Part shown: one piece after another, positions 36,791 through 54,477 of the stretch
How the letters are laid out: each line of letters opens with the position of its first letter
Numbering within the stretch: the first letter of the stretch is position 1
Assembly: GCF_900465055.1 (NCBI RefSeq)
Contig: NZ_LS483250.1
Location: 3,348,001 to 3,412,000 of the forward strand
DNA length: 64,000 bases
Source of the DNA: Moritella yayanosii
Lineage (GTDB): Bacteria; Pseudomonadota; Gammaproteobacteria; Enterobacterales; Moritellaceae
Direction of reading: 5' to 3'
Notes under the pieces: model-generated
The model's input: only the letters and a program-made list of their open reading frames with translations
Databases searched by the model: none
Told to the model about the DNA's origin: nothing
Program-made: the position numbers and the translations under genes

Positions 36791-36865
36791 TAAATACACT
36801 TTCTAATTGAGGTGTGATGCTAAGCAGGGTAGCAGATATTATTTTAAATAAAGACTGAGTTAATA

Positions 36866-38075: not shown

Positions 38076-38963
38076 ATGATCAAAAAATGTTTATTCCCTG
38101 CTGCTGGTTACGGCACACGTTTTTTACCCGCCACCAAATCAATGCCAAAAGAAATGATGCCTGTCGTTAACAAGCCGTTAATTGAATACGGTGTCGAAGA
38201 AGCGATTGCAGCGGGTATGAACGGCATGTGTATTGTCACTGGTCGAGGTAAGCATTCATTAATAGATCATTTTGATAAAAACTACGAATTAGAAGACCAA
38301 ATCAAAGGCACCAATAAAGAAGAATTGCTCGACGATATACGTGGCATTATCGAATCGGCGCACTTTACCTACATTCGTCAAAGTGAAATGAAAGGCTTAG
38401 GTCATGCCATTTTAACGGGACGAGAACTTGTGGGTGACGAACCGTTTGCGGTGGTACTGGCCGATGACCTTTGTGTCAATGATGGCAAAGGCGTACTCGA
38501 ACAAATGGTGGCACTGTACAAGCAATTCCGTTGTTCTATTGTCGCAGTTGAAGAAGTGCCTGCAGGTGAAACCCATAAATACGGGGTGATTGCCGGTGAC
38601 CAAATTCGTGACGATCTATACCGCGTGACTAACATGGTAGAAAAACCAGCACCCGGCACTGAACCAAGCAACCTTGCGATTATTGGCCGTTATATTCTTA
38701 CCCCAGATATCTTTGAGTACATTGAGAATACCCAACCCGGTAAAGGTGGCGAGATCCAAATTACCGATGCCTTGCTTAAACAGGCGCAGGAAGGTTGTGT
38801 GATCGCATACAAGTTTAAAGGTAAGCGGTTTGACTGTGGCTCAGTAGAGGGTTACATCGATGCGATCAACTACTGTTACGAAAACGTATATCTGCAAGAT
38901 TCTAAGGCAGAATTAAATAAAAAGAAAACCGAGAAACAAAAGAGATTACTCGCAGTAACCTGA
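38076..38963 (+). CDS. galU: UTP--glucose-1-phosphate uridylyltransferase GalU
   Basis: Makes UDP-glucose from UTP and glucose-1-phosphate. The 295 aa protein has the nucleotidyltransferase signature AAGYGTRFLPATKSMPKEMM at the N-terminus, VLADDLCVN and VEKPAPGTEPSNLAI. ATG follows TAGAGAGAAC. It is the first gene after the ops-like site and directly precedes ugd, so the pair would supply UDP-glucose and UDP-glucuronate for the polymer. It may also serve the whole cell. Confidence 0.96.
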   Translation: MIKKCLFPAAGYGTRFLPATKSMPKEMMPVVNKPLIEYGVEEAIAAGMNGMCIVTGRGKHSLIDHFDKNYELEDQIKGTNKEELLDDIRGIIESAHFTYIRQSEMKGLGHAILTGRELVGDEPFAVVLADDLCVNDGKGVLEQMVALYKQFRCSIVAVEEVPAGETHKYGVIAGDQIRDDLYRVTNMVEKPAPGTEPSNLAIIGRYILTPDIFEYIENTQPGKGGEIQITDALLKQAQEGCVIAYKFKGKRFDCGSVEGYIDAINYCYENVYLQDSKAELNKKKTEKQKRLLAVT

Positions 38964-39035
38964 TCCGTAATGGGTAACAGCACTATTGGCGATAAATGAC
39001 AGCGGAGTCTGTCATCTTTATACATCAGGACGTTT

Positions 39036-40202
39036 ATGAATATTACGATAGCAGGGACTGGCTACGTTGGTCTGTCAAATGCGGTGTTATTAGCCCAGCA
39101 TAATAACGTTATAGCACTGGATATTATTGCAGACAAAGTCGCATTAATTAACGACCTAAAATCACCTATTGCGGATGCTGAAATAGAAGACTACCTCGCC
39201 AATAAAGCCTTAAACTTAATCGCGACGACCAATAAACATGATGCTTACGAAAATGCGGATTATGTCATTATTGCGACGCCGACAGATTATGATTCTGAGA
39301 ATAACTATTTTGATACTTCATCAGTAGAAGCGGTGATTAAAGATGTCATGTTAATTAACCCTACCGCGATCATGATCATCAAATCCACAGTGCCCGTGGG
39401 TTATACCAAACGTATTAAGCAAAAACTCTGCTGTAGTCACATTATATTTTCTCCGGAATTTTTACGCGAAGGCAAAGCGCTGTACGATAATTTACACCCC
39501 TCGCGTATTATCGTCGGTGAACAGTCGGAACGTGCAGAAGTGTTTGCTGGCCTGTTAGCGCAGGGCGCAATTAAACAAGACATCGACATCTTATTCACTG
39601 ACTCGACCGAAGCGGAAGCGGTGAAGTTGTTCTCGAACACTTACCTGGCCATGCGGGTATCTTATTTTAACGAATTAGATACTTATGCAGAAACACATAA
39701 CTTAAACGCCCGTCAAATCATCGAAGGTGTAGGGCTTGACCCGCGTATTGGTAACCACTACAACAACCCATCATTTGGTTATGGCGGTTATTGCTTACCG
39801 AAAGACACTAAGCAACTACGTGCCAACTTTGAAGATGTGCCAAACACCTTAATCAGCTCGATTGTTGAATCAAACACAGTGCGTAAAGACTACATAGCGT
39901 CTTCGATTATTAGCCGACAACCAAAAGTCGTGGGTATCTACCGCCTTATTATGAAGACAGGTTCGGATAATTTCCGTGCATCATCTATTCAAGGCGTGAT
40001 GAAACGGATTAAAGCCAAGGGCATTGAAGTGGTTATTTATGAGCCAGTGTTAAATGAAGACACCTTCTTTAACTCTAAAGTAATTACTGACTTTGAAGAG
40101 TTTAAAGCAATGTCAGATGTGATTGTATCGAACCGTATGGAAGCTGCGTTGGAAAGTGTGGTTGATAAGGTTTATACGCGTGATTTGTTTGGTAGTGATT
40201 AG
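39036..40202 (+). CDS. ugd: UDP-glucose 6-dehydrogenase Ugd
   Basis: NAD-dependent oxidation of UDP-glucose to UDP-glucuronate. The 388 aa protein has the N-terminal dinucleotide motif [15 protein letters not shown] and the catalytic cysteine in [15 protein letters not shown]. Length fits the single-domain-pair Ugd of gammaproteobacteria. The ribosome site CAGGA lies upstream of ATG. Its presence implies a uronic acid or uronic-acid-derived sugar in the polysaccharide. Confidence 0.96.
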
Positions 40203-40302
40203 GCTGGCAGTGATAAGAGCACTATTACTTTAAATAAACGAATTTTACAGAATAATATAATTGTTGTTATAAACAATTAACGACAAATACTCGGAGTAAT
40301 TA

Positions 40303-41217
40303 ATGGAAATATCACAAGCAAGAATGACTCATCTTAAGCAATTAGAGGCTGAGTCTATTCATATCATGCGTGAAGTAGCGGCAGAGTTTGATAACCCTGT
40401 GATGTTGTATTCAGTGGGTAAAGATTCTGCGGTAATGTTACATCTATGCATGAAGGCATTTTATCCGGCGAAACCGCCATTCCCATTAATGCACATTGAT
40501 ACCACATTCAAATTCAAAGAAATGATTGAATTTAGAGACCAAGCCGTTAAAAAATACGGTATGGATTTAATCGTACATAAAAATGAAGAAGGCATTGCCG
40601 CTAATATTAATCCTTTCGATCACGGCAGTGCAAAATACACTGACGTAATGAAAACTGAAGGCTTGAAGCAAGCATTAAATAAATATGAGTTTGATGCTGC
40701 ATTTGGTGGTGCTCGACGTGATGAAGAAAAATCGCGTGCGAAAGAACGTGTATATTCATTCCGTGATAAGAATCACCGTTGGGACCCTAAATGCCAACGT
40801 CCTGAGTTGTGGAATACGTACAACGGTAAAGTGAATAAAGGCGAAAGCATTCGAGTATTCCCATTGTCAAACTGGACTGAGCTTGATATTTGGCAGTATA
40901 TCTACCTTGAAGGTATCGAGATTGTACCGCTGTATTTAGCTAAGAAACGCCCAGTGGTAGAACGTGACGGTGCATTAATCATGGTTGATGATGAACGCTT
41001 ACCGTTACACGAAGGTGAAGTACCTATGATGAAGAGTGTACGTTTCCGTACCCTAGGTTGTTACCCATTAACAGGTGCGGTTGAGTCTGAAGCAGCAACG
41101 TTACCTGAGATTATTCAAGAAATGTTATTAACTAAAACATCGGAACGTCAAGGTCGTGTCATCGATCATGATTCGTCAGGTTCAATGGAAAAGAAAAAAA
41201 TGGAAGGTTACTTTTAA
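40303..41217 (+). CDS. cysD: Sulfate adenylyltransferase small subunit CysD
   Basis: Catalytic subunit of ATP sulfurylase, making adenosine 5'-phosphosulfate from ATP and sulfate with CysN. The 304 aa protein has the PP-loop [29 protein letters not shown] and the C-terminal [15 protein letters not shown] typical of CysD. It is 100 nt after ugd and 79 nt before cysN, all on the same strand. Its place inside a polysaccharide operon suggests APS is made here for PAPS-dependent sulfation, although an assimilatory role is not excluded. Confidence 0.96.
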
Positions 41218-41296
41218 TCGCACAGTGATTGAGAGACGCTGCTTATAACCCAAATATCTTAACCTTTAATTTAATAACAAATTTTGAGAATTTAAC

Positions 41297-42727
41297 ATGA
41301 CAACACAAACGACAAACGAACAATCGTTACTCGAAAACGATATTGAAGCCTATTTACAAAAGCATGAAGACAAAGACATGCTGCGCTTTTTAACCTGCGG
41401 TAACGTGGATGACGGTAAATCAACACTGATTGGCCGCCTGTTACATGACTCAAAATTGATTTTTGAAGATCACATGGCCGCCATTATAAGCGACTCTAAA
41501 AAATACAACACCACAGATGGTGAGTTTGATTTAGCACTATTAGTAGATGGCCTACAAGCTGAACGTGAGCAAGGTATTACCATTGATGTTGCTTACCGTT
41601 ATTTTGCGACAGAAAGCCGTAAGTTTATTATTGCCGATTGCCCTGGGCATGAACAATACACGCGTAACATGGTGACGGGTGCATCTAACTGTGACCTCGC
41701 TATTGTGATGATTGATGCGCGTTATGGTGTGCAAACACAAACAAAACGTCATTCTTACATTGCGTCGTTGTTAGGGCTGAAACACGTTATTGTTGCTGTA
41801 AATAAGATGGATTTAGTTGATTTTAGCCAAGAAGAATACCGTAAGATTAAAGCGGATTACAAAGCCTTTGCGCAAGATCTTAATATTCCTGATATTCGCT
41901 TTGTGCCGATTTCAGCATTAAAAGGCGATAACGTAGTAAACAAGTCTGAATCAATGGATTGGTATCCTGGTGCGACGTTAATGGAGCTGCTTAATTCAGT
42001 GACAATTAATGAAGACAAAAACCTAGATGATTTCCGTTTCCCTGTGCAGTTTGTTACCCGTCCTAATTTAGACTTCCGTGGCTTCTGCGGTACGGTTGCG
42101 GCTGGTGTGATTAACGTTGGTGATGTGATCACTGCTATGCCATCGGGTAAGTCGTCAACGGTTGCGCGTATTGTCACTGCGGATGGCGATTTAGCCAATG
42201 CATTTGCGGGTCAAGCGATTACGATTACCACCAATGATGAAATAGACATTTCTCGTGGTGATGTGCTCGTTAAATCAAACAAACTTGCGACAGCGTCAGA
42301 CCACTTCGAAGCAACCATCGTCTGGATGGATGATGCAGCACTGCAACCAGATAAAGAATACGAGTTCAAAGTAGGTACTAAAAATACTTACGGCCGTATC
42401 GAAAGTATTAATCACAAAATAGATGTTAATACGCTAGAACACGTTGAAGTGAATGAAATGCAACTTAACGAGATTGCGTCTTGTAATATTCGCACATCAA
42501 GCCCTGTCGTGATTGATGAATACAACACCGTGAAAGGCACTGGCTCGTTTGTGGTGATTGACCGCTTAACTAATGTGACTGTTGGTGCTGGGATGATTAC
42601 TAAGACGAATGTTGATAGTGATGGTGCTGAACAAGTTAAAAGAGAATATACGCAGGCTGAGGTTGAGTTGAATGCGTATGTTAGGAAGTGTTTTCCTGAG
42701 TGGAACTGTACTCCTATAGATGTTTAA
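41297..42727 (+). CDS. cysN: Sulfate adenylyltransferase large subunit CysN (GTPase)
   Basis: EF-Tu-like GTPase whose GTP hydrolysis drives APS synthesis by CysD. The 476 aa protein has G1 GNVDDGKSTLIGRL, G3 DCPGHEQYTRNM, G4 NKMD and beta-barrel domains behind. It has no fused APS-kinase domain (unlike CysNC proteins), consistent with a separate cysC at 51077. It ends 45 nt before the sulfotransferase start. Base composition drops abruptly straight after it. Confidence 0.96.
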   Translation: MTTQTTNEQSLLENDIEAYLQKHEDKDMLRFLTCGNVDDGKSTLIGRLLHDSKLIFEDHMAAIISDSKKYNTTDGEFDLALLVDGLQAEREQGITIDVAYRYFATESRKFIIADCPGHEQYTRNMVTGASNCDLAIVMIDARYGVQTQTKRHSYIASLLGLKHVIVAVNKMDLVDFSQEEYRKIKADYKAFAQDLNIPDIRFVPISALKGDNVVNKSESMDWYPGATLMELLNSVTINEDKNLDDFRFPVQFVTRPNLDFRGFCGTVAAGVINVGDVITAMPSGKSSTVARIVTADGDLANAFAGQAITITTNDEIDISRGDVLVKSNKLATASDHFEATIVWMDDAALQPDKEYEFKVGTKNTYGRIESINHKIDVNTLEHVEVNEMQLNEIASCNIRTSSPVVIDEYNTVKGTGSFVVIDRLTNVTVGAGMITKTNVDSDGAEQVKREYTQAEVELNAYVRKCFPEWNCTPIDV

Positions 42728-42772
42728 GATCGTCAAGTCATTTATATGGTCGTTTATAAACAGGAATGTAGG

Positions 42773-43531
42773 ATGAAAAAAATATTTAAAGACCTCAGTA
42801 CATCATATAATAAATATAGAAATGAAGACGCAATACTGGTCTATCAAATGGGTAAAGTGGGTTCAACTAGTTTTGAACAATCGTTACCAAACTCAATACA
42901 TCTTCATACACTATTCGGTAATTCACCTTGTTATTTGCATCAAAACCTGAGAGATAAATATAAACTTGGTTTGTTAAAAAGGTTGTTTTTTGAGTTTGTA
43001 AAACGAATAGCGATAAAGAAAAGAAATAAAATAAAAATTATAAGTTTAATTCGAGAACCGATATCGAGAGATAAGTCAATGTTTTTTCAAAACATACAAC
43101 ATTGGTTGTATAAATATTCTGAGGATCCTTCTACTGATATAAGATCAGAAGGAAATGAATATTTAGTTGATGCTTTTTATAAAATTTATGATTTTGATTA
43201 TGGATTGAATTGGTATAGCCGTGAATTTAAAAAATTTACCGGAATTGACGTATATCAATATGAATATAATGTAAAAGAAGGTTATACGATTATTAATGAA
43301 GGTAAGTTTGAAGTTTTAATTATAAATTTGGCTAATTTAAATGAATTGAATGCAGTTATTACAAACTTTACCGGTCAAGATATATCTCAAGTAAAAGGTA
43401 ACTCAGGAGATAAAAAATGGTATAGCGAAGTATATAAAGCATTCAATAAAGGTTTTGTTATTAGAACTGAATATAGGGAAAAAATTCAAAACAGTATTTT
43501 TTATAGGCATTTTTTTTATGAAAAGCCATAG
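42773..43531 (+). CDS. NKWYS-type polysaccharide sulfotransferase (putative)
   Basis: The 252 aa protein resembles the family labelled putative capsular polysaccharide synthesis protein (NKWYS). It has a PAPS 5'-phosphosulfate-loop-like motif VYQMGKVGSTS (about 23-33), a 3'-phosphate-like motif SLIREPISRDKSMFF (about 91-105), and the name-giving DKKWYSEVYKAF (about 213-224). I infer transfer of sulfate from PAPS to a sugar. I chose ATG 42773 (AGGA 7 nt upstream) over 42746. It is directly downstream of cysDN, which supports the role. It is soluble and basic, with no membrane helix. Confidence 0.75.
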   Translation: MKKIFKDLSTSYNKYRNEDAILVYQMGKVGSTSFEQSLPNSIHLHTLFGNSPCYLHQNLRDKYKLGLLKRLFFEFVKRIAIKKRNKIKIISLIREPISRDKSMFFQNIQHWLYKYSEDPSTDIRSEGNEYLVDAFYKIYDFDYGLNWYSREFKKFTGIDVYQYEYNVKEGYTIINEGKFEVLIINLANLNELNAVITNFTGQDISQVKGNSGDKKWYSEVYKAFNKGFVIRTEYREKIQNSIFYRHFFYEKP

Positions 43532-44654
43532 AGATTATTTATCTAATTTATTAATAGTAATTATTATTTCTAGTGCTTTTTTAGATGGTGTATTTGGCGA
43601 TACCTTTGAAGTACTTCAACAGGCTGTATTATTAGTCGTCTTATTATTATCTACAATATTGACAGTGGATATATTTTTCAGTCGAATACAGTATCTACAA
43701 TTAGAATTTTGGGTTTTTTTACTATCAATAATATATGCAATATCAGCAATATATTATGGTTATGGTTTTAAATACAGCGTGTACCTTATTTTTTGTATGT
43801 CGGCTTGTATATTATCCTCTGAAAATAATTTTAGCTCTAATTTTTTATCCATAGTAAAAATAATAATAATATTTTTCATAGCTCTAATTTTTATTGTTGG
43901 CTTGTTTGGATTTTGGGGTACACCTAAAAATACAATCGGTGGAAATATTATTGCATTAGGTATCTTACTTTTAATTTTCTCTTCATATGATAAAGATAAT
44001 TTTGTTTTTATTGCAAGTTATTTTTTTATATTAGTATCGATGTGTTTATTTATTGATTTTCGAGGTGGAACAATACAATTAGTCATCGTGTTTTTAGGGA
44101 TACTAATTGGTTCTAAATTTGAATTTAAGATTAATCCACTAATCGTTTTTATTAGTTCTATATCAATAGCTTTTTCTATTGTATTTATCTTGTCTGATTT
44201 GGAATATTTTTTTTATATATCAGGACTAGGGGATACCGTAATTGAAATAAGTCATCGAGGCTTATCTTCTGGTCGGGAATTAATATGGCCGTTAGCTATA
44301 GAGTTGATATTTGAAGCCCCATTAATAGGACATGGTGCTGGATTTCTAATTAGAGATATTTTCACTGAAGAAACCTGGTCGTCTCATAACTTATTCATAC
44401 AAGTATGGTTACAGGTCGGATTAATTGGACTAGGTGTTTTATCCATGATTTTATATAAAATCATGATAGCTTTATATAAAAATGAAAATAATCATATCTA
44501 TATAGTTTCTTTATTTTATTGGATTAGCCTTATTGTATACAATTCGTTTGAGGTCTCATTTTTTCAAAACTCTATGCCTATAGCAATATTACAATGGTTA
44601 ATTGTTGGAATCCTTTTGAATAAACAAAGTGGAAAAGTAATTACGAATGAATAA
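43518..44654 (+). CDS. wzy: Wzy-like polysaccharide polymerase (O-antigen ligase family)
   Basis: Very hydrophobic protein of 378 aa with about ten membrane helices. The periplasmic loop has LSSGRELIWPLAIELIFEAP then IGHGAGFL and SSHNLFIQVWLQVGLIG, the Wzy_C/O-antigen-ligase pattern. I chose the internal ATG 43518 (MKSHRDYL), overlapping the sulfotransferase stop by 14 nt; the longer frame from 43455 lies inside that gene. A T-rich stretch before ATG gives a weak ribosome site, so translation is probably coupled. It likely joins repeat units flipped by the Wzx at 47952. Confidence 0.8.
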   Translation: MKSHRDYLSNLLIVIIISSAFLDGVFGDTFEVLQQAVLLVVLLLSTILTVDIFFSRIQYLQLEFWVFLLSIIYAISAIYYGYGFKYSVYLIFCMSACILSSENNFSSNFLSIVKIIIIFFIALIFIVGLFGFWGTPKNTIGGNIIALGILLLIFSSYDKDNFVFIASYFFILVSMCLFIDFRGGTIQLVIVFLGILIGSKFEFKINPLIVFISSISIAFSIVFILSDLEYFFYISGLGDTVIEISHRGLSSGRELIWPLAIELIFEAPLIGHGAGFLIRDIFTEETWSSHNLFIQVWLQVGLIGLGVLSMILYKIMIALYKNENNHIYIVSLFYWISLIVYNSFEVSFFQNSMPIAILQWLIVGILLNKQSGKVITNE

Positions 44655-45699
44655 AGTAATAATAATTTCAAATGCGTCATCAACTCATACAGTTCGTTGG
44701 GTAAATGCAATAGCATTAAAAAAGTTTGATGTTTATTTAATTACACAACATGATGTAATGAAGGGGGTTAGTAAAAATGTGAATGTAATAAAATTACCTT
44801 TTAGTGGATTTAAAGGGTATTTTTTTAATGTTTTTGCATTACGAAAAATAATAGGCGAGCTAAAACCTGATAATATACATGTTCATTTTGCGAGTGGCTA
44901 TGGAACGTTAGCTTTAAATGCTCGAATTAAATATTTATTGTCAGTTTGGGGTTCAGATGTTTTTCGATTTCCACAGCAAAATAAATTGAATAAATTCTTA
45001 CTTGAGAGAGTGTTAAATAATGCAACTCAGATATTTTCTACAAGTTTTGCAATGAAAGACGAAACTTTGAAATATACAAGTAAAGATATTCAGGTGATAC
45101 CATTTGGTGTATCTCCTGATCTATATTCCAATCCGAATTATTCAGAGCGAAGTGGAACAGTTACTTTTGGTTTAGCTAAGGTCTTAGAGGCTCGTTATGG
45201 GGTTGATACGTTATTACAATCATTTGCGAAGTTAAAAAAAGAAACTGATATACAGCTAAAATTGGAAATTGCAGGAGATGGTCCAGAGAGAAGGAATTTA
45301 GAGATATTATCAAAAAAACTTAATATTGAAAGTAGCGTGAAATTTCTAGGTTGGATTCATAATGCAGACTTACATAAGTTTTATAAAAACATAGATGTAA
45401 TGGTTGTACCTTCAAGAGAGGAAAGTTTTGGTGTAGTTGCTGTTGAAGCTGGAGCTGCACATTTACCATGTATTGTTACCGATGTAGGAGGGCTACCAGA
45501 GGTCATTCTACATGATAAAACAGGAATTGTGGTCCCTGTTGATGATGTTTATTTGATGTCTAGAGCTATGCATAAATTAGCTAAAGACAAACCTTTAAGA
45601 ATACAACTAGGTCAAAAGGCATATAATAACGTGATAGTTAAATATGACTGGAATAAAAATGTTGACGAAATGTGTAATTGGTATGAGAGAGGGAAGTAA
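44647..45699 (+). CDS. GT4-family glycosyltransferase
   Basis: GT-B fold transferase of 350 aa. The N-terminus IISNASSTHTVRWVNAIALK is typical of GT4 acceptor-binding domains. The donor domain shows the EX7E motif in PSREESFGVVAVEAGA (about 255-270) and TDVGGLPEVI. It overlaps wzy by 8 nt (start inside the previous stop region), so the two are coupled. The sugar and linkage cannot be read from the sequence. Composition is AT-rich like its neighbours. Confidence 0.88.
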   Translation: MNKVIIISNASSTHTVRWVNAIALKKFDVYLITQHDVMKGVSKNVNVIKLPFSGFKGYFFNVFALRKIIGELKPDNIHVHFASGYGTLALNARIKYLLSVWGSDVFRFPQQNKLNKFLLERVLNNATQIFSTSFAMKDETLKYTSKDIQVIPFGVSPDLYSNPNYSERSGTVTFGLAKVLEARYGVDTLLQSFAKLKKETDIQLKLEIAGDGPERRNLEILSKKLNIESSVKFLGWIHNADLHKFYKNIDVMVVPSREESFGVVAVEAGAAHLPCIVTDVGGLPEVILHDKTGIVVPVDDVYLMSRAMHKLAKDKPLRIQLGQKAYNNVIVKYDWNKNVDEMCNWYERGK

Positions 45700-45732
45700 T
45701 ATGTTTGTAATTCGTAAAGGAGTGATTGGTTT

Positions 45733-46890
45733 ATGATATATATATTTGGATTTTCAGTGTTTTTACTTGTTTATATATACATACTCTACCCAATTATTAT
45801 CTTCTGTATAAAGCAGCCTCAAATAAAAAAAATAATTGAGCTGAAAGAACCATCCATTGTAATAATAGTTCCCGCACATAATGAAGAACAAGTTATTCAA
45901 GAAAAACTTGATAACCATCTTAAATTGAACTACAAAAATTATAAAGTTTTAGTTATTTCTGATACATCTACAGATCAAACATCAAATATTGTTTCGAAAT
46001 ATGTGAAACAATATCCTGAAAAAATAATGCTGAATGAAGTGTTTGATGGATTGGGAAAAACAAATGCGATAAATAAGTCATTAAAAGGACTTGATTGCGA
46101 TATTTTAGTTTTTTCTGATGCTAACGTATATCTTAAAAATGATGCATTACAGCAAGTTTCAAAGTCATTTTGCGATAATAATGTTGGAGGTGTTGCAGGG
46201 CAACTTATATATACTAACGATGATCTGGAAGGCTCTGCAGAATCGAATGGCTTATACTGGAAGTATGAAGAATCAATTAAAATGTCAGAATCTAATACTG
46301 GTTCAATGATGGGAGCTGACGGGTCTATATTTGCTATTCGTCGTGATTTATATAGAGAGTTACCTGTTCATGTTCTAGATGATTTTTGCACTTCAACAGG
46401 AATTATTACTCAGGGTTATGAACTTAAATTTAATGATGACATTGTTGCTTACGAAAAGGGAGCTGAATCTACCAATGAAGAATTCCCAAGGAAAATAAGA
46501 ATTAGTAATAGATCATATAATAGTTACAAGTTTATGAAATCTGAATTTTTGAAAGAACTGTCTTTATTTAATTTATGGAAAATGTATTCACATAAAGTTC
46601 TCAGGTGGTATAGCTTATTATTTATGGTTATAGCTTTAATTTCAAATATCTATTTATCTATAACATTAGCTTCACCATTTTGGTTATCAACTGCAATATC
46701 ACATATAACTTTTTATCTTGTCGCAATAATTTCATGGATGGGTTATTTCCCGAGAATACCGATATTAAAAAAATTAGCAACTATCATTGAATATTTTGTA
46801 ATGGTTAATGTTGCTGCAGGGATTGGTGTTTCTCAATCAATTCTAGGTGTAAAAACAATAACGTGGAAAAAGGCGAGTTCAACTCGTTGA
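45733..46890 (+). CDS. Membrane GT2-family glycosyltransferase
   Basis: Processive-type or monofunctional GT2 enzyme of 385 aa. An N-terminal membrane helix is followed by the GT-A domain with IVIIVPAHNEEQVI, the nucleotide/metal motif FSDANV, then DGSIFAIRRDLY and the acceptor-side DDFCTSTGI. C-terminal helices (about 295-315, 320-340) and YSHKVLRWYS precede the end. It is similar in layout to hyaluronan- or cellulose-synthase relatives but lacks a clear QXXRW, reading SHKVLRW instead. It probably adds one sugar of the repeat unit. Confidence 0.84.
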   Translation: MIYIFGFSVFLLVYIYILYPIIIFCIKQPQIKKIIELKEPSIVIIVPAHNEEQVIQEKLDNHLKLNYKNYKVLVISDTSTDQTSNIVSKYVKQYPEKIMLNEVFDGLGKTNAINKSLKGLDCDILVFSDANVYLKNDALQQVSKSFCDNNVGGVAGQLIYTNDDLEGSAESNGLYWKYEESIKMSESNTGSMMGADGSIFAIRRDLYRELPVHVLDDFCTSTGIITQGYELKFNDDIVAYEKGAESTNEEFPRKIRISNRSYNSYKFMKSEFLKELSLFNLWKMYSHKVLRWYSLLFMVIALISNIYLSITLASPFWLSTAISHITFYLVAIISWMGYFPRIPILKKLATIIEYFVMVNVAAGIGVSQSILGVKTITWKKASSTR

Positions 46891-46948
46891 TTTTTAATGT
46901 ATCATTTTAGGTTAATAGCCTATTTATTATTTAGGGGGTTTTATTTAG

Positions 46949-47905
46949 ATGGCAACGATAATTATATTTGGTGGTTCGGGATTCATTGGTACACATTTAT
47001 CTCATAAACTTATTTCTGATGATTACAACGTTATAATTATTGACTTAAATAAACCTCGGTTTAGTCATGAACAGTTAACTTATATAAAATGTGATGTGAG
47101 GGATTTATCTAAATTAGATATAAATGTCCCAATTGAACGTATTTATAATTTTGCTGCTGTCCATACTACCCCTGGACATCCAACACATGAATACTACGAC
47201 ACAAACATTGCAGGAGCTAGTTCAGTTTGTGAACTCGCAGAAAAACATGATGTAAATGAAATTATTTTTACAAGCTCAATTTCTGTTTATGGACCTGACG
47301 AAGAACAAAAAGATGAAAATACAGAATTAACCCCGAATTCTGCATACGGTTACTCTAAAATGTTGGCTGAGAAAATTCATAAATCTTGGTATAAAAGTCG
47401 CGATAACAGAAAATTAACAATCGTTCGTCCAGCTGTTGTTTTTGGTCCGGGTGAAGGTGGTAACTTTACTCGGCTAGCGACTATGATGGGTAAAGGTATA
47501 TTTATTTATCCGGGACGGAAAAATACGATCAAAGCATGTATTTATGTTGAAGACTTAATATCTGCGATTGAGTCGGCAAGATATACAGATAACTCATTTG
47601 AACTGTTTAATGGTGCATATCCTGAGCGCTATACACTTGAAAACATAATCGAATGTTTTAAAAAAAATCATTTTCCTAATGTGAAATTATTTATGGTTCC
47701 AAAGCAAGTCGTACTTTGTGCTGCAAGTTTGTTTAAAATAGTAAATTTCTTGAATATAGGTATTCACCCAGATCGAGTGATGAAGTTAATTCGTTCAACC
47801 AATATCTACCCTAGTTGGATAGTTGAGAATGAAATTCAGTTACCGGGTGATCTTGAAAGTGCTTTGCAGCGTTGGTCTGATTCTACAAATGGTCGTTTTG
47901 ATTAG
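46949..47905 (+). CDS. NAD-dependent epimerase/dehydratase (extended SDR)
   Basis: Nucleotide-sugar modifying enzyme of 318 aa. It has NAD-binding GGSGFIGTHL (residues 8-17), the catalytic YxxxK as Tyr133-Lys137 in SAYGYSKMLAEK, the catalytic Ser/Thr region TSSISVYGPDE, and a substrate-binding region VRPAVVFGPGEGG. Which sugar it acts on is not clear; a UDP-glucuronate or UDP-hexose epimerase would fit the neighbouring galU and ugd. It sits between the GT2 gene and wzx. Confidence 0.85.
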   Translation: MATIIIFGGSGFIGTHLSHKLISDDYNVIIIDLNKPRFSHEQLTYIKCDVRDLSKLDINVPIERIYNFAAVHTTPGHPTHEYYDTNIAGASSVCELAEKHDVNEIIFTSSISVYGPDEEQKDENTELTPNSAYGYSKMLAEKIHKSWYKSRDNRKLTIVRPAVVFGPGEGGNFTRLATMMGKGIFIYPGRKNTIKACIYVEDLISAIESARYTDNSFELFNGAYPERYTLENIIECFKKNHFPNVKLFMVPKQVVLCAASLFKIVNFLNIGIHPDRVMKLIRSTNIYPSWIVENEIQLPGDLESALQRWSDSTNGRFD

Positions 47906-47951
47906 GTTGTAAGTCAGTTTATCTTTCATACATATTTAGTTAGTCGGCATA

Positions 47952-49298
47952 ATGTTATCTAAAATAAAATCTGTATTATCTCATTCGGAACATCGAAATA
48001 CGGCCATTAATGCATTTATTGCATTGTTTATTCGTATTCTCGGTGCTGGCATGGCGTTCATTTTTAATTTATTGGTCGCAAGATCGTTAGGTGCAGAGAA
48101 ATCGGGTTATTTCTTCTTAGCATTTGCACTGATTATGTTCTTGTCCGCTTTTTGCCGCATGGGTTTTGAGAATACGATTTTACGATTTTCGGGGATCGCG
48201 GCAAAGCAGCAACAGGGCAAGTCAATTTCAGCAATATTACATTATGCATTTAAATACACACTGCCTTTAGCAGTTTTGATGAGTGTATTTTTGTATTTGA
48301 TTGCAGAGCCTTTAGCTGTATACGGCTTTAGTAAACCTGAAATGATAAATACATTAAAAGCGATATCGCCTGCTATATTCGCTATATCGGTGGTGACGCT
48401 ACTTGCAATGAGCCTACAAGCGCAGCAACGTTTAACGGCTTCGATCCCTTGCCAAAATATTGTTCACCTTGTTTTAACCTCTGTAGCTATTTTAGCGTTC
48501 AGCCTATCGACCGCAACAGAAGTGAGTGCTGTATTTTCAATCGCATTGATTATTTCCTCAATTATATTTTATGGAATATGGTCAAAAGGACTAAATCAAG
48601 AAGGGCAGTTGTCTGGCAATAATAAAAAGTTACTAGACAAAAAAGAACGATTACCTAACAAAAATGAACTATGGAAAAGTGCCAAATCAAATTGGCTAAT
48701 CAGCATGATGGGCCAGACTGTTCAATGGATAGGCCCATTAATTACAGGTATGTGGTTAATGGCTGAAGACGTTGCATATTTGTCTGTTGCCATGCGTATT
48801 GCCATGCTCACTAGTTTTATCTTAATGGCGATTAACTTAGTGGTGGCTCCTAAGTTCGCGGCATTCCATGCCAGTAATGATATGAGCGGTTTGCGTAGTA
48901 CGGCATTATTTTCGGTGCGATTATTAATATTATCTGCAGTACCAATTGTTTCATTCATGTTTGTATTCCCCGAATTTTTAATGGGGTTGTTTGGTGAAGA
49001 CTTTGTGAGCGCCGCAGGATTATTACAAATATTGGTCTTAGGTCAGTTTATTAATGTCGTCACAGGTTCGGTGGGTTATCTGCTTACCATGTCAGGACAT
49101 GAACGTGATATGCGTAATATTTCGTTAGTATCAGGTATTATGGCTGTCGTGTTGACCTTATTTCTGACGAAGCATTACGGCGTAACAGGTTGTGCAATTG
49201 CGACAGCAGCAAGCCTTGCATTTCAGAATTTAGCCGCGGTTTACTTTGTCAAAAAACGGCTAGGATTTAACACTCTACTGTTTTGGCAAAAAATCTAA
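47952..49298 (+). CDS. wzx: Wzx-type oligosaccharide flippase
   Basis: Polysaccharide-specific transporter of the MOP superfamily, 448 aa with about twelve to fourteen helices. It would move undecaprenyl-linked repeat units to the periplasm. The N-terminus (INAFIALFIRILGAGMAFIFNLLVARSLG in two overlapping helices) and the FMFVFPEFLMGLFGEDF segment are typical. A charged cytoplasmic loop (NNKKLLDKKERLPNKNELWK) lies mid-protein. Its composition is closer to the flanking chromosome than the preceding five genes. Confidence 0.87.
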   Translation: MLSKIKSVLSHSEHRNTAINAFIALFIRILGAGMAFIFNLLVARSLGAEKSGYFFLAFALIMFLSAFCRMGFENTILRFSGIAAKQQQGKSISAILHYAFKYTLPLAVLMSVFLYLIAEPLAVYGFSKPEMINTLKAISPAIFAISVVTLLAMSLQAQQRLTASIPCQNIVHLVLTSVAILAFSLSTATEVSAVFSIALIISSIIFYGIWSKGLNQEGQLSGNNKKLLDKKERLPNKNELWKSAKSNWLISMMGQTVQWIGPLITGMWLMAEDVAYLSVAMRIAMLTSFILMAINLVVAPKFAAFHASNDMSGLRSTALFSVRLLILSAVPIVSFMFVFPEFLMGLFGEDFVSAAGLLQILVLGQFINVVTGSVGYLLTMSGHERDMRNISLVSGIMAVVLTLFLTKHYGVTGCAIATAASLAFQNLAAVYFVKKRLGFNTLLFWQKI

Positions 49299-49321
49299 TA
49301 GATGAGTTGTAAGTTATCATC

Positions 49322-51049
49322 ATGAATCTCGAACAATTAACTATTATCGGAATTTTCGCTTGTACCCTTATCGGTCTAGTCAAGTTCCAAAAAGTCCCCG
49401 AACGGGTATTCGCAGCAGCCTGTTTGGCCTGTTTAGGTTTATCATTTATATCCAGTGACGAGCTATTACACAATGCGGTAAATCCGGGATTAGTGACGCT
49501 GATGTTATTGGTTGTTTGCTCCTATGCGTTTGAACGTACAAGCTTGCTTAGGCGTTTATCCAAGGTGCTATTTAATGGGTCGAAATCGAAAAGTTATTTA
49601 AAAATATTAGTCGGTACAGCGTTCGCATCCGGTTTACTTAACAATACTGCGGTTGTTGCAACGCTTATTAATCCAGTTAAACAAAACAAACTGATCAATC
49701 CAGGTAAATTATTATTACCACTGTCCTATGCGGCAATCCTTGGTGGTACGCTAACCCTGATTGGAACATCAACTAACTTAATCGTTAACTCCATGCTGTT
49801 AGCGCGGGGTAAACAAGGTTTCGCATTCTTTGACTTCTTCCTTGTCGGGATCGTTGTTTTAACCGCTTGTTTAATTGTCATCGCATTCACCATTCGTTTT
49901 CTGCCTCGCAGTTTGCTTGAAGAATCTAAAATTCGTGAATATTTTGTTGAAGCGGAAGTTAAAACAACCTCGTCATTATGCGGTAAAAGCGTAGAGGAAA
50001 ATGGGCTGCGTAACCTTGAGTCGTTATTCCTTGTAGAGATAATTCGTCAAGGGCGCTTAATTACTCCTGTTACCCCCGATGAAATAATCCAAAGAAAAGA
50101 TAAACTCATTTTCTCGGGTGATGTATCCAAGGTGAAAGTATTACGTCAGTTTGACGGTTTAACCATGTTTGCCGAGCAAGATGGTTTACTGCGTGACAAC
50201 CTAACCGAAGTGGTCATCAAGCCCGGTGCATCTATCGCAGGTAAAACACTTAAAGCGGCAAGTTTCAGAGCAAGGTTTGATGCCGCTGTTGTGGCAATCC
50301 GTCGGGAAGGTGAACCGTTATCAGGTAAGCTCGGCGATGTTGTGATCCAAAGTGGTGATTTCCTGGTATTAGCCGTCGGTCGTGACTTTGCCGAACGCAC
50401 CAATCTGGCGAAAAACTTCTTTGTCATTAGTGACGTGGCAACGACAAACATGTTAACCGGGGTTAAAGAACGCATCGTACTGTGGGGGTTCATGATCACC
50501 ATAGCCACATCCATCGTGTTTAACGTAGCGTTATTTACCTGCTTTGTATTTTATCTCGCGGTATTACTGGTCACAAAATGTTTATCGATCAACGAAATAA
50601 AACGTCGATTACCCATTGAACTGTGGGCAATCGTCGCCAGTGCCCTTTGCCTTGCTACGGCACTCGATAATACCGGCGTAACGGCCTTACTGTCAGACTT
50701 CGTCAAGTTATACTTACAAGATCAAAGTGCTTATATCGCATTTATTGGGGTATTTATATTAACCCTTATACTGACCGAGTTAATCACCAATAACGGTGCA
50801 GCGGCATTAACCTTTCCCATCGCATTTAGTATCGCAACAGGTTTGGATGTCAGTTACCTGCCCTTTGTGATGGCCGTTGCTTTTGGTGCCAGTGGTAGTT
50901 TTATTAGCCCCTATGGCTATCAAACCAATTTAATGGTGTTTAATGCGGGTAATTATAAATTAATCGACTTTGTTAAGTTTGGATTACCGGTATCTATCAC
51001 TTACAGTATTGCGGTCATCATCATGATCCCCATTGTTTTTCCTTTTTAA
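49322..51049 (+). CDS. SLC13-family permease with RCK domains (probable sulfate importer)
   Basis: DASS/SLC13 transporter of 575 aa. Two membrane halves surround a cytoplasmic insert (about 200-375) with two RCK-C/TrkA-C-type repeats (IIRQGRLITPVTPDEIIQR; AVVAIRREGEPLSGKLGDVV). Signature motifs of the SLC13 hairpins are LNNTAVVATLINP, GTSTNLIVNS, TNNGAAALTFPIAF and ASGSFISPYGYQTN. From the cysC neighbour I infer sulfate as substrate. In Vibrio and Shewanella the usual order, as I recall, is cysD-cysN-SLC13-cysC without interruption. Confidence 0.87.
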   Translation: MNLEQLTIIGIFACTLIGLVKFQKVPERVFAAACLACLGLSFISSDELLHNAVNPGLVTLMLLVVCSYAFERTSLLRRLSKVLFNGSKSKSYLKILVGTAFASGLLNNTAVVATLINPVKQNKLINPGKLLLPLSYAAILGGTLTLIGTSTNLIVNSMLLARGKQGFAFFDFFLVGIVVLTACLIVIAFTIRFLPRSLLEESKIREYFVEAEVKTTSSLCGKSVEENGLRNLESLFLVEIIRQGRLITPVTPDEIIQRKDKLIFSGDVSKVKVLRQFDGLTMFAEQDGLLRDNLTEVVIKPGASIAGKTLKAASFRARFDAAVVAIRREGEPLSGKLGDVVIQSGDFLVLAVGRDFAERTNLAKNFFVISDVATTNMLTGVKERIVLWGFMITIATSIVFNVALFTCFVFYLAVLLVTKCLSINEIKRRLPIELWAIVASALCLATALDNTGVTALLSDFVKLYLQDQSAYIAFIGVFILTLILTELITNNGAAALTFPIAFSIATGLDVSYLPFVMAVAFGASGSFISPYGYQTNLMVFNAGNYKLIDFVKFGLPVSITYSIAVIIMIPIVFPF

Positions 51050-51076
51050 ACTTACAACTACGTCTCAGGATCTTAA

Positions 51077-51712
51077 ATGTCAGAACAACCTTACAAAAAC
51101 ATCGACGTTGATGGCGACAAATCATCAGACGTAGTTTGGCATCAAGCCAGTGTTAGCCATGAAGAACGTGTCTCGGGCAACGGCCACAAACCTGCGGTAC
51201 TTTGGTTCACTGGCTTAAGTGGTTCGGGCAAGTCAACCGTCGCGAATGCCGTGGATAAAATGCTGCACGATCTGAGCTGTAAAACCTATGTGCTTGACGG
51301 TGACAATGTTCGTCATGGCTTAAATGGTGATTTGAGCTTTACCGACACTGACCGCATTGAAAACATCCGCCGTATTGGCGAAGTATCAAAACTGTTTGTC
51401 GATGCCGGATTGTTAGTATGCACTGCATTTATCTCCCCCTTCATTGTCGACCGTGAAATGGTACGCAAACAATTAGCAGAGGGTCAGTTTGTTGAAGTGT
51501 TTATCGACACACCACTGGCAGTATGTGAACAACGTGATCCCAAAGGCTTATACAAGAAAGCCCGCACCGGCGAAATCAAAAACTTCACCGGCATAGACTC
51601 TGCTTATGAAGCGCCAGAAAATGCCGAGATAGTGGTCAAAACAGCAGACCTATCCATCGAAGAATGCGCACAGCAAGTTGTACAGTATCTAAAGAAACAG
51701 CAATATATTTGA
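51077..51712 (+). CDS. cysC: Adenylylsulfate kinase CysC
   Basis: Phosphorylates APS to PAPS, the universal sulfate donor. The 211 aa protein has P-loop [12 protein letters not shown] (about 50-61), [25 protein letters not shown] and [20 protein letters not shown], all typical of active CysC. The ATG follows an AGGA site 28 nt after the SLC13 gene. Together with CysD and CysN it completes PAPS synthesis within this locus. Confidence 0.97.
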
Positions 51713-51779
51713 AGAGCTTAGACTTATTTTACTCGTAGCATGCAGCTCTGAGCTCACCGCTATCACTACAAGGATTATT

Positions 51780-52736
51780 ATGCATTACGATGTATTCAAT
51801 GGTGATGCTGATGGCATCATCGCATTACTGCAATTACGTTTAAACGAACCAAAACAAAGTACATTAATTACCGGTGTTAAACGTGACAACAGCCTGTTAA
51901 AACATGTGGATGTAACCAAGGCGTCAGCGGTTGTTGCACTTGATATATCCATGGAGAAAAATACCGAGGCATTAACGTCAATTTTAGCCAATGATATACC
52001 CGTATTTTATTGTGATCACCACAGAACTGGGGCGATACCCCAATCAGATAAGTTAACCGCGCTTGTTGATACCTCGTCAGAGGTTTGCACTAGCTTATTA
52101 ATCAATAATAAATTAGGTAATAAATACATACACTGGGCTATCGCAGCAGCTTATGGTGATAACTTGGTTTCAACAGCTGATCAACTTGCAGATGAACATA
52201 AAGTAACAGCGCAGCAAGCTGATTTTTTATGTGAATTAGGCACGCTAATCAATTATAACGGCTACGGTGCGTCATTAGACGATTTACATTTTGACCCCGC
52301 GGTTCTCTATCGCCAACTATCACAATTTACCTCGCCATTTTCATTACAAGATGACCAATCATCGGTGTTCTATACATTGCAATCCGCTTATCGTCACGAT
52401 CATCAACGAGTGACTGGCATTACACCTTATATAAGTAATGATATTTGCGAAGTATATGTTTTACCTTGTGAGGCGTGGGCGAGGCGTATTAGTGGTGTTT
52501 ATGGCAATGAATTAGCTAACCGCAACCAAAGTAAAGCCCATGCGGTATTAACCCTTAATAGCGATGGATCTTATCTGGTCAGTGTTCGCGCGCCACTTGA
52601 AAATCGTGTTGGTGCGGATGACCTTTGCGCTCAATTTACCACAGGCGGTGGTCGTAAAGCGGCTGCAGGCATTAATAAATTACCAGCAGGTCAAATAGAT
52701 AAATTTGTAAATATGTTAGCTTCATCTTATGCATAA
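51780..52736 (+). CDS. DHH-family phosphoesterase (candidate pAp phosphatase)
   Basis: The 318 aa protein has motif I VFNGDADGIIALLQL, the DHH triad Asp79-His80-His81 in FYCDHHRTG, a third acidic site AAYGDN, and a C-terminal DHHA1-like domain with TGGGRKAAAGIN, in which Arg stands where most families have His (GGGH). DHH enzymes of the NrnA type hydrolyse 3'-phosphoadenosine 5'-phosphate and short oligonucleotides. Next to cysC and downstream of a sulfotransferase, removal of the pAp by-product is an attractive role, but it is inference. Other DHH functions remain possible. Confidence 0.72.
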   Translation: MHYDVFNGDADGIIALLQLRLNEPKQSTLITGVKRDNSLLKHVDVTKASAVVALDISMEKNTEALTSILANDIPVFYCDHHRTGAIPQSDKLTALVDTSSEVCTSLLINNKLGNKYIHWAIAAAYGDNLVSTADQLADEHKVTAQQADFLCELGTLINYNGYGASLDDLHFDPAVLYRQLSQFTSPFSLQDDQSSVFYTLQSAYRHDHQRVTGITPYISNDICEVYVLPCEAWARRISGVYGNELANRNQSKAHAVLTLNSDGSYLVSVRAPLENRVGADDLCAQFTTGGGRKAAAGINKLPAGQIDKFVNMLASSYA

Positions 52737-53253: not shown

Positions 53254-54477
53254 ATGACTAAGTTCAATCACACCACGCTAAGCGCCAAAAAAAGTGTCTT
53301 AGCGACGGCATTGCTTGCAATATTTAGCCTGCCAACTATTGCAGCACCTGACAGCAGCACTGACACATACACGACTAAATCTGGTATTCAAGTCACGCCG
53401 TCACTAAGTATAGACGCTAAATACGATGATAACATTTATAACCAAACGAATAATGAAACAAGTAGTGCGGTATTAATTGTAGCACCTGCGGTTAGTTTTA
53501 AAATTGATAATGGTATTAACACCTTCTCGTTTGATGTTGGCCTGAACGCTGGCACTTACGCAGAAAATGCGGATGATAACTATGTTGATGGTGACTTGGG
53601 TGTTGCTGTGCATATTGAAAACGGTAAATCACACCGTTTTGATTTTACTGCGTCGATAGCGAGTATTTCAGAGCAACGTGGTTCGGGATTAAGTGAAGGT
53701 GCTTTTGATCCGAATGCGGACTTGATCCGTTATTCAGACCTGTTGTTAACCGCAACCTATGAATATGGTATACGCAGCACGCAGGCGCGTATCGCATTTA
53801 CCACTGAAGCAGGTACCACAGATTATAACAACAACAATGTGTTTGCTACCGCCGACAGCAACGTATCAAACAACTTATTTGGTACCACGTTTTATTACAA
53901 TACCAACGCATTTACCGAAGTATCGCTGACCCTAAACGGTGATTACATTCGTTATGATACCGCATCACTAAAAGATTCTGATGTTTATAACGCGCTGCTG
54001 GGTTTGAAGTGGCAGAGTTCGTCAGTCATTACTCTCGATGGTAAGTTAGGTTTTGAATTTAAACAATTTGAGAACACTGCGGTTGACGATTTTGATGGCT
54101 TAACTTGGGATATCGGTGCTAAGTGGCAACCGCTACGTTATACCTCTTTCTACCTGTCAACGACACAGGCTTCACAAGACCCTGATTCTGCAGATGGCTC
54201 TTACTTAGTAGAGCGTGATGTTGATCTATCTTGGGTTCACGCCTGGAGTTCAAAAGTGGATACCTCACTGGCTGTGACTTATCAACAAGACGAATATGAA
54301 AATGAAGCGAATAACCGTTTAGATGAATACTTGAAATATACCGCGGCTGTTGATTACTCATTTACGCAATGGTTAGACGCGTCGCTGTATGCTGAAATGA
54401 TCAATAACGATTCTAACCAGCAAAACATTTCTTATGACAAATTTGTCACCGGTTTAAACCTTACATTTACCCTATAA
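53254..54477 (+). CDS. Outer-membrane beta-barrel of polysaccharide export (VpsM/EpsL-like)
   Basis: The 407 aa protein has a signal peptide (SVLATALLAIFSLPTIAAP) and then alternating short beta strands rich in Tyr, Asp, Asn and Thr. It opens with VTPSLSIDAKYDDNIYN, the start seen in BBP2_2/EpsL-type barrels, and ends in a strand closing with NLTFTL (C-terminal hydrophobic/Phe-Thr-Leu). It sits directly before a Wza-like gene, in the order of Vibrio vpsM-vpsN-vpsO-vpsP. I infer it is the outer-membrane channel for the polymer. Confidence 0.78.
   Translation: MTKFNHTTLSAKKSVLATALLAIFSLPTIAAPDSSTDTYTTKSGIQVTPSLSIDAKYDDNIYNQTNNETSSAVLIVAPAVSFKIDNGINTFSFDVGLNAGTYAENADDNYVDGDLGVAVHIENGKSHRFDFTASIASISEQRGSGLSEGAFDPNADLIRYSDLLLTATYEYGIRSTQARIAFTTEAGTTDYNNNNVFATADSNVSNNLFGTTFYYNTNAFTEVSLTLNGDYIRYDTASLKDSDVYNALLGLKWQSSSVITLDGKLGFEFKQFENTAVDDFDGLTWDIGAKWQPLRYTSFYLSTTQASQDPDSADGSYLVERDVDLSWVHAWSSKVDTSLAVTYQQDEYENEANNRLDEYLKYTAAVDYSFTQWLDASLYAEMINNDSNQQNISYDKFVTGLNLTFTL

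Follow-up and report, generated by a model that had tools for sequence, protein, structure and literature searches.

We analysed a stretch of 64,000 nucleotides, hereafter the window, from the complete 4.43-Mb genome of Moritella yayanosii (contig NZ_LS483250.1, positions 3,348,001 to 3,412,000), which holds a polysaccharide locus combined with genes for the activation of sulfate to 3'-phosphoadenosine 5'-phosphosulfate (PAPS). The list of open reading frames (ORFs) places 13 genes, from galU through the gene of a DHH-type phosphoesterase, on the forward strand at 38076-52736 (Table 1). A first-pass annotation of the sequence had described the genes from cysD to the DHH gene as running in one direction after galU-ugd, and every ORF it named was found at its position and in this common orientation. 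The intergenic gaps from galU to the DHH gene are at most 100 bp and are followed by a gap of 517 bp, a spacing that fits one predicted operon.

The identities given to CysD, CysN and CysC were confirmed by NCBIfam models above their cut-offs. Pfam models also exceeded their cut-offs for PF10364, Wzy_C, both glycosyltransferases, Epimerase, Polysacc_synt, CitMHS/Na_sulph_symp and APS_kinase. The annotation of the permease as an SLC13 member was supported at the level of Pfam and not by the NCBIfam DASS model (86.4 vs a cut-off of 198.6); its substrate is presumably sulfate. The proposed uronic acid in the polymer has the presence of galU-ugd as its sole basis, and three dehydrogenases in the genome, the ugd product of the window among them, exceed the PF03721 cut-off.

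Table 1. Genes and other features at the M. yayanosii locus and around it (positions in the window)
Feature	Position	Strand	Basis or remark
Initiating sugar-phosphate transferase	30845..32239	+	PF02397
O-antigen-ligase-type protein	32208-33512		PF04932
LapD-like GGDEF/EAL receptor	34775..36799	-	counterpart left of the S. hanedai locus
LapG-like cysteine proteinase	36866..37522	-	PF06035; counterpart left of the S. hanedai locus
ops/JUMPstart-like element AGCGGTAGCGT	38008..38018	+	1 mismatch, 57 bp 5' of galU; weak
galU, UTP-glucose-1-phosphate uridylyltransferase	38076..38963	+	PF00483
ugd-type UDP-sugar dehydrogenase	39036..40202	+	PF03721/PF00984/PF03720
cysD, second copy, left end of conserved frame	40303..41217	+	NCBIfam over cut-off
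cysN, second copy, last conserved gene before low-GC cassette	41297..42727	+	NCBIfam over cut-off, tree
NKWYS (PF10364) protein, likely PAPS-dependent polysaccharide sulfotransferase	42773..43531	+	Pfam, motifs, model
wzy-like polymerase (Wzy_C)	43518..44654	+	Pfam; start is an internal ATG; GC3 0.195
Glycosyltransferase, GT4 type	44647..45699	+	Pfam; GC3 0.202
Glycosyltransferase, GT2 type	45733..46890	+	Pfam; GC3 0.207
NAD-dependent sugar epimerase/dehydratase, last low-GC cassette gene	46949..47905	+	Pfam Epimerase; GC3 0.232
wzx flippase, right-hand frame	47952..49298	+	Pfam Polysacc_synt; GC3 0.363
SLC13-type permease with TrkA_C domains, presumed sulfate importer	49322..51049	+	Pfam CitMHS/Na_sulph_symp
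cysC, APS kinase, second copy	51077..51712	+	Pfam APS_kinase, NCBIfam over cut-off
DHH-DHHA1 phosphoesterase, presumed pAp phosphatase	51780..52736	+	motifs, fold, context
Outer-membrane beta-barrel polysaccharide protein, EpsL-like	53254..54477	+	below cut-off
Wza-like OPX export protein, EpsE/EpsY-like	54630..55151	+	below cut-offs
Wzc-like co-polymerase/tyrosine autokinase	55151..57433	+	TIGR01007 over cut-off
VpsP-family polysaccharide protein	57430..58161	+	NF038257 142.4, cut-off 125
GC3, GC content at third codon positions; APS, adenosine 5'-phosphosulfate; pAp, 3'-phosphoadenosine 5'-phosphate; OPX, outer-membrane polysaccharide export.

Two PAPS-forming gene sets in one genome

A separate assimilatory block, cysD-cysN-SLC13-cysC-cysQ, lies at 2.37 Mb of the same genome, and a cysJ-cysI-cysH cluster lies at 2.42 Mb. 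The sole CysH-type match in the genome is about 970 kb away from the locus, with cysJ and cysI beside it, and an inspection by eye of the ORFs in 30000-60000 found neither cysI nor cysJ, for which no genome-wide search was made. The earlier statement that no such reductase is encoded nearby therefore stands. Two copies of CysC were found in the genome, and the CysDNC set of the window is a second set alongside an intact assimilatory pathway, as would be expected of a dedicated PAPS supply. Because a complete assimilatory set and cysJIH are located elsewhere, the set in the window need not serve cysteine synthesis.

The products of the window are closer to their counterparts in Shewanella hanedai than to the assimilatory copies of their own genome, with identities of 96.7% against 79.1% for CysD, 89.2% against 58.5% for CysN, 80.5% against 45.5% for the SLC13 permease and 81.0% against 53.8% for CysC; wzx shares 88.8% identity with that of S. 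hanedai. In a tree of 60 CysN sequences, built by a quick method with support from the SH-like approximate likelihood ratio test (SH-aLRT) only, the assimilatory copy of M. yayanosii falls together with nine others lacking a DHH gene (support 100), and the window copy stands beside that of S. hanedai within the other group of 50 rows. Three of these 50 rows are labelled as lacking the DHH gene (L162, L164 and L175; L and G numbers are our labels for loci and genomes). In L162 and L164, the DHH gene sits in an adjoining piece or past the 9-kb limit, which leaves L175 as the only exception in the sequence read. On the CysC tree of 62 rows, two changes of the DHH label are required. A recent origin of the window set by duplication of the assimilatory set within the genome is ruled out by the CysN tree and the identities.

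Among 10 other genomes of the genus, a convincing second CysC was found in Moritella dasanensis only; a second match in G008 covers 106 positions with E 6.6e-4 and 21.3 bits, against a cut-off of 21.1. The M. dasanensis locus (L026) has an SLC13-cysD-cysC-cysN-DHH block between the ORFs at 29-1492 and 9366-10814, whose products (487 and 482 residues) share their N-terminus, as if the block had been inserted with a duplication.

The NKWYS protein and its cassette

The product of the gene following cysN, annotated as an NKWYS-type sulfotransferase with PAPS-like motifs, matches PF10364 with 75.5 bits (cut-off 25.1) over residues 121-248. N-terminal to this region lie two motifs, which we take to be those binding the PAPS cofactor. 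YQMGKVGST (residues 24-32) follows the strand-loop-helix arrangement of the 5'-phosphosulfate type, with a strand at 21-25 and a helix at 31-34, and REPISRDKS places R94 and S102 after the strand 87-93, as in the Arg/Ser pair of the 3'-phosphate type. Across 17 NKWYS proteins, including that of the window and leaving out row L181, where a different ORF had been taken, the first loop contains K/R in all 17 and G-K/R-x-G-S in 14, and the second motif has Arg and Pro in all 17 and Ser in 16.

The structure model of the NKWYS protein is of moderate confidence (predicted local distance difference test 76.3, predicted template-modelling score 0.80, five sequences in the alignment). Its best Foldseek match is human SULT1A3 (E 9.3e-3), and re-alignment of the Foldseek matches gave sulfotransferases throughout among the 50 matches listed (Z 7.0-8.4), including heparan N-, 2-O- and 3-O-sulfotransferases. 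Teg12 and Teg14, named in the titles of two listed matches, are presumably sulfotransferases as well. Three points weaken the structural argument: no Foldseek match reached E<=0.001, the top Z of 8.4 is close to the 7-8 cited as the usual maximum for models that lack clear relatives, and the Z listing consists of Foldseek's own matches aligned anew. As the Z-scores alone are near background, the weight lies in their agreement with the motifs. A sequence search of the PDB with the NKWYS protein gave no match, and the papers in open-licence PMC contain no mention of NKWYS or PF10364. The Vibrio breoganii member of the family has in addition a match to PF03567 that stays under the cut-off (E 0.0025). 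PAPS binding, as first proposed, is consistent with both cofactor motifs, even though the sulfotransferase matches of the model are weak by Foldseek, and the NKWYS protein is likely a PAPS-dependent polysaccharide sulfotransferase.

The genes flanking this part of the locus form a frame, with cysD-cysN on the left and wzx-SLC13-cysC-DHH on the right, that is kept in S. hanedai, Pseudoalteromonas sp. H71 and Vibrio maerlii, and the cassette between the frame ends differs among the four loci. In the window, GC3 falls from 0.379 in cysN to 0.19 in the NKWYS gene, stays at 0.19-0.23 through the epimerase gene and reaches 0.363 in wzx. The drop directly after cysN also occurs in the other three loci, and the right border of the low-GC part varies, lying at manC in S. 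hanedai, at what we take to be a manC-like gene in V. maerlii, and only after the DHH gene in H71. In S. hanedai, cysN is directly followed by a PF03567 sulfotransferase gene and then by IspD-like, LicD, wzy, glycosyltransferase, manC and manB genes (IspD-like and manB named by eye, wzy and the glycosyltransferases by eye and weak similarity); its right side reads wzx-SLC13-cysC-DHH, followed by the genes for an initiating transferase, the barrel, wza and wzc. The S. hanedai locus has no ugd, and its galU-labelled gene is 40% identical. The cassette of V. maerlii holds a PF13469 sulfotransferase. The candidate in H71 fits the pattern less well, being a short or broken piece of 121 residues with a PKTATS motif and no Pfam match. 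That the sulfotransferase family differs while the sulfate-activation genes stay would be expected if those genes serve the sulfotransferase. The sulfotransferase, wzy, glycosyltransferase and epimerase genes would constitute an exchangeable cassette in a fixed frame.

The family itself is rare: PF10364 was found in 5 of 394 genomes of the order and in 11 of 369 genomes of the class, with the window genome included in both counts. M. yayanosii has one NKWYS protein, and none occurs in the other 10 genomes of the genus. Its wider distribution tells against a strict link with PAPS synthesis, since no cysDNC was seen within the ~20-35 kb around the gene in three of the order's four further genomes with this family, and the cysDNC set of the fourth, G071, contains the only cysD of that genome. 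NKWYS beside cysDNC, considered as a general rule, is refuted by those three genomes. In G071, the NKWYS gene belongs to a polysaccharide locus ~15 kb upstream of cysD-cysN-SLC13-cysC-cysQ on the same strand, and an ORF between them (L193:1868) starts with a PKAGSS motif of similar kind. The NKWYS gene of V. breoganii (43% identical product) lies ~5 kb from SLC13-cysD-cysC-DHH-cysN, and two DHH-type cysDNC sets (L167, L171) occupy both ends of one polysaccharide locus in this species. As both of its cysD genes flank that locus, ~19 kb apart, one of them must be assimilatory.

The DHH protein as a candidate pAp phosphatase

The last gene of the run had been called a DHH phosphoesterase, a name supported by invariant motifs and fold and not by Pfam, where the protein stays below the cut-offs (PF01368 17.8 vs 28.1, PF02272 22.7 vs 25.9). 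D9, D11, D55, D79-H80-H81 and D127 are invariant in seven of seven DHH sequences. The protein is at most a divergent DHH-DHHA1 relative, and its predicted structure suggests that it probably works like one. Foldseek ranked the Methanothermococcus PAP phosphatase 8a8k first for this model (E 1.9e-10, TM 0.62), and the first-pass proposal that removal of pAp is encoded at the locus gains from this resemblance of the model to an assayed PAP phosphatase. MtPAPP from Methanothermococcus thermolithotrophicus has been assayed and frees phosphate from PAP; like the window protein, it has a DHH-DHHA1 fold, metal-binding aspartates and a DHH motif, and its gene is near those for ATP sulfurylase and APS kinase (PMC10322725). 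In contrast to the window protein, MtPAPP is archaeal and operates in sulfate assimilation; the two share 13-15% identity, and the ligand His6 of MtPAPP corresponds by sequence position to Asn7 (PMC10322725).

The same fold would equally suit a nano-RNase, a hydrolase of pGpG or a similar enzyme. RecJ nucleases match the model with Z 19.9 vs 17.9 for 8a8k, PggH of Vibrio cholerae also matches (Z 14.4), and NanoRNase A is among the structural matches. Because RecJ matches as well or better, the fold indicates the class of enzyme and not its substrate. A PDB sequence search with the DHH protein returned four weak matches, to antibody-like chains or their targets. Among the best 80 of 345 named relatives, 50 have cysC within 6 kb of the DHH gene, and 44 of these have cysD and cysN as well; the remaining 30 lack cysC within 6 kb, and some relatives stand beside ugd or an epimerase gene instead, as another substrate would allow. 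Both trees and the motif screen described below used an earlier grouping into 49 linked loci and 31 others; the frame-level recount of 50 and 30 adds L142, whose cys genes are overlaid by longer antisense ORFs. Twelve further cysDNC blocks comprise ten without a DHH gene (nine of the own-assimilatory type plus L175) and two with it (L169, L171). In four of the DHH-less blocks, namely the own assimilatory block (L004), L170, L176 and L193, cysQ adjoins cysC. The position beside cysC is thus taken by either the DHH gene or cysQ, consistent with a shared task of their products. As CysN and CysC also cluster by DHH linkage on the trees, we consider a substrate other than pAp possible but doubtful, and pAp would be the substrate of the modelled DHH protein. 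No paper in open-licence PMC joins DHH phosphoesterase, adenylylsulfate kinase and Vibrio.

In Vibrio and Aliivibrio, DHH relatives without cysC within 6 kb were observed directly 3' of ugd in L097, L105, L111, L124, L127, L128, L137, L143 and L146.

A linked DHH gene does not by itself point to a sulfated polymer. In 8 of 13 cysC-DHH genomes examined, where CysD and CysH were separated by match length, the module contains the only cysD, and the other five have an extra set; in those eight, the DHH-type set must serve cysteine. DHH linkage alone as a marker of sulfated polymers is hence refuted. A motif screen for sulfotransferases, a crude filter on flanks of ~10 kb (polysaccharide loci are longer than the flank), yielded 17 candidate ORFs in 15 of the 49 linked loci and one in the 31 others; an earlier, stricter version had flagged five ORFs. 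Five linked candidates were set aside by eye (KdsB-like in L084, L089 and L109, a glycosyltransferase in L083 and one of two in L159). The 12 remaining fall into those above Pfam cut-offs (L086, L091, L096, L101, L102, L107 and L147, the identical genes of L091, L096 and L107 having entered the scan under the labels L164, L066 and L166), those below (L159, L119) and those without a Pfam family (a piece in L084, L093 and L098, as also the unlinked L160 candidate). A local search with hidden Markov models gave additional weak matches in L110 and L160. Just 7 of 49 linked loci, then, have a Pfam-supported sulfotransferase within ~10 kb, a count to which S. hanedai does not contribute as its sulfotransferase lies beyond the 10-kb flank. 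This low fraction and the eight genomes with a sole cysD tell against a sulfation role.

Those eight genomes lend some support to the view that cysDN-SLC13-cysC of the window is a redundant cysteine set that came to lie in a polysaccharide locus by chance, with NKWYS being an unrelated capsule gene, all the more as cysD-cysN-SLC13-cysC is also the gene order of the assimilatory set. Such a view has to contend with the complete assimilatory set, cysQ and cysJIH included, elsewhere in the genome, with the cassette that splits the window set and opens with a sulfotransferase-like gene, and with a different sulfotransferase at the same place in S. hanedai. We regard it as highly improbable, its exclusion being incomplete because PAPS is also a precursor of cysteine.

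Eight loci from Colwelliaceae/Alteromonadaceae (L130, L135, L144, L148, L154, L157, L158, L161) show the order galU-cysD-cysN-SLC13-cysC-DHH-epimerase, three of them with one extra ORF after galU, and the motif screen flagged no sulfotransferase in them. Sugar-nucleotide and sulfate-activation genes adjoin there, the galU label corresponding to 41-44% and the epimerase label to 24-29% identity.

Taken together, we give equal weight to accepting and to doubting a broader reading, in which a serotype-like locus is mobile among marine Gammaproteobacteria, with the sulfate-activation genes as its constant borders, and the cassette inside, including the sulfotransferase, is replaced, even by one with a sulfotransferase of a different family at the same position. 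With the same evenly divided confidence, sulfation would be constant and the sugar target variable, NKWYS would be an unrecognised sulfotransferase family, and the DHH-type pAp phosphatases would form a bacterial lineage associated with CysN and CysC lineages of their own.

Export genes, proposed pathway and known systems

Export by a vps-like route, as annotated at first, is supported by the VpsP-family protein encoded downstream (Table 1). The locus combines Wzx and Wzy with Vps-type export genes, although the OPX protein remains under the model cut-offs and the initiating transferase is encoded outside the gene run; in S. hanedai and H71, a relative of this transferase sits between the DHH gene and the barrel gene. 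VpsP-family, Wzc-like, OPX and barrel proteins are shared with the Vps/EPS export systems of Gammaproteobacteria, from which the window differs in that the export genes are linked to a sulfate-activation and sulfotransferase set.

We consider it highly likely that the locus directs the synthesis of a Wzx/Wzy exopolysaccharide which draws on a PAPS supply of its own and receives its sulfate in the cytoplasm, ahead of export, the polymer being the presumed acceptor. The SLC13 permease would import sulfate, CysDN would convert it to APS, and CysC would convert APS to PAPS. The NKWYS protein might then move the sulfuryl group onto a sugar of the lipid-linked repeat assembled by the GT4-type and GT2-type glycosyltransferases, and the DHH phosphoesterase would turn the by-product pAp, which otherwise inhibits sulfotransferases, into AMP. 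The repeat unit could be flipped by Wzx, polymerised by Wzy and exported by the Wza/Wzc/VpsP-type machinery. We infer this order of steps from the gene content.

Sulfation might also be real with a different acceptor, such as a glycolipid, the O-antigen of lipopolysaccharide or some other glycan of the cell surface. The product of the genes is a glycan of the Wzx/Wzy type, an O-antigen-ligase-type protein (PF04932) is encoded near the locus, and a sulfotransferase of Vibrio sp. KMM 8419 was assigned to an O-antigen locus (PMC11641403). Yet the genes directly downstream are Wzc-like, OPX, barrel and VpsP-family parts of exopolysaccharide export, and relatives of the initiating transferase, barrel, wza and wzc follow the DHH gene in S. 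hanedai and H71, which makes another acceptor rather improbable.

The genes for LapD-like and LapG-like proteins, the latter name being the one we presume for the PF06035 protein, lie divergently beside the locus as in S. hanedai, which suggests control of the same surface state by cyclic di-GMP (c-di-GMP). The adjoining GGDEF/EAL gene in both genera would also suit a role of the extra PAPS set in signalling, where PAPS raises c-di-GMP and turns on exopolysaccharide genes, as proposed for Vibrio vulnificus. In that species, PAPS production was reported as a requirement for the induction of brp by calcium and, as a separate effect, for rugosity, with cysD and cysC mutants showing no calcium induction of brp and no rugosity (PMC6113621). 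Signalling as the purpose of the set leaves unexplained why, in two genera, cysN is immediately followed by a sulfotransferase-like gene, and we deem it very improbable. Both roles could coexist, and a sulfated polymer could itself account for the PAPS requirement of rugosity under brp induction.

Between the O-antigen-ligase-type gene and the LapD-like gene, 33591-34544 on the reverse strand encodes a repeat protein, probably exported, in which a ELAQAEPLAKDNTVPVISN unit occurs six times in near-identical form; at the corresponding position, S. hanedai and H71 encode a shorter protein whose N-terminus is similar. The ops/JUMPstart-like site 5' of galU was identified with what we take to be the ops consensus. 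Eight sites with at most one mismatch occur in the window vs 1.87 expected, one of them exact, at 7261, and GGTAGC was not found in the stretch 5' of the Shewanella or Pseudoalteromonas sister loci. An Rfam scan of the window found no family. Promoter-like matches were below (37 vs 67.1) and terminator-like matches above (21 vs 12.5) those in shuffled sequences, and neither was used as evidence.

The first-pass annotation had called such a sulfated polymer unusual, which is too strong because sulfated-capsule loci with PAPS genes of their own have been described from Vibrio and Cobetia (PMC11641403, PMC11766843). Vibrio sp. KMM 8419 has a sulfated capsule, with the polymer solved by NMR, and the authors regard the combination of PAPS and sulfotransferase genes as a hallmark (PMC11641403). 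As in the window, second copies of cysC, cysN and cysD belong to its polysaccharide locus with sulfotransferase genes; unlike the window, export is by an ABC transporter (Kps), the repeat consists of rhamnose and glucose, and the word phosphoesterase is absent from the main text (PMC11641403). The capsule locus of Cobetia marina KMM 1449 contains PAPS genes, a sulfate permease gene and a PAP phosphatase gene and shares the sulfate economy proposed here, but has a fused cysN/cysC, CysQ instead of DHH and ABC-transporter export (PMC11766843). Synechan of Synechocystis PCC 6803 (xss), in which sulfate was demonstrated, is like the window a Wzx/Wzy exopolysaccharide with sulfotransferase genes, whereas its gene list names no PAPS-synthesis genes; the Pfam search for sulfotransferases in that paper covered PF00685, PF03567 and PF13469 and not PF10364 (PMC8205485). 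The cluster legend in PMC7356697 likewise names no PAPS genes. Polysaccharide loci that bring their own PAPS genes are thus a known concept; what sets this one apart is the Wzx/Wzy-Vps setting, together with NKWYS as the likely sulfotransferase, a DHH protein as partner and the presumed exchange of cassettes.

In summary, the locus was very probably read correctly at first. Marine sulfated polysaccharides are abundant and of medical interest, and few bacterial producers with known genes are available. If our interpretation is true, the locus would offer a signature of genes by which sulfated polymers of the Wzx/Wzy type could be recognised in marine Gammaproteobacteria, a function for a Pfam family so far named only as putative capsule synthesis, and a route of pAp clearance in bacteria other than CysQ. 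It would also allow an alternative reading of the PAPS requirement of rugose biofilms in V. vulnificus, where the matrix itself might be sulfated.

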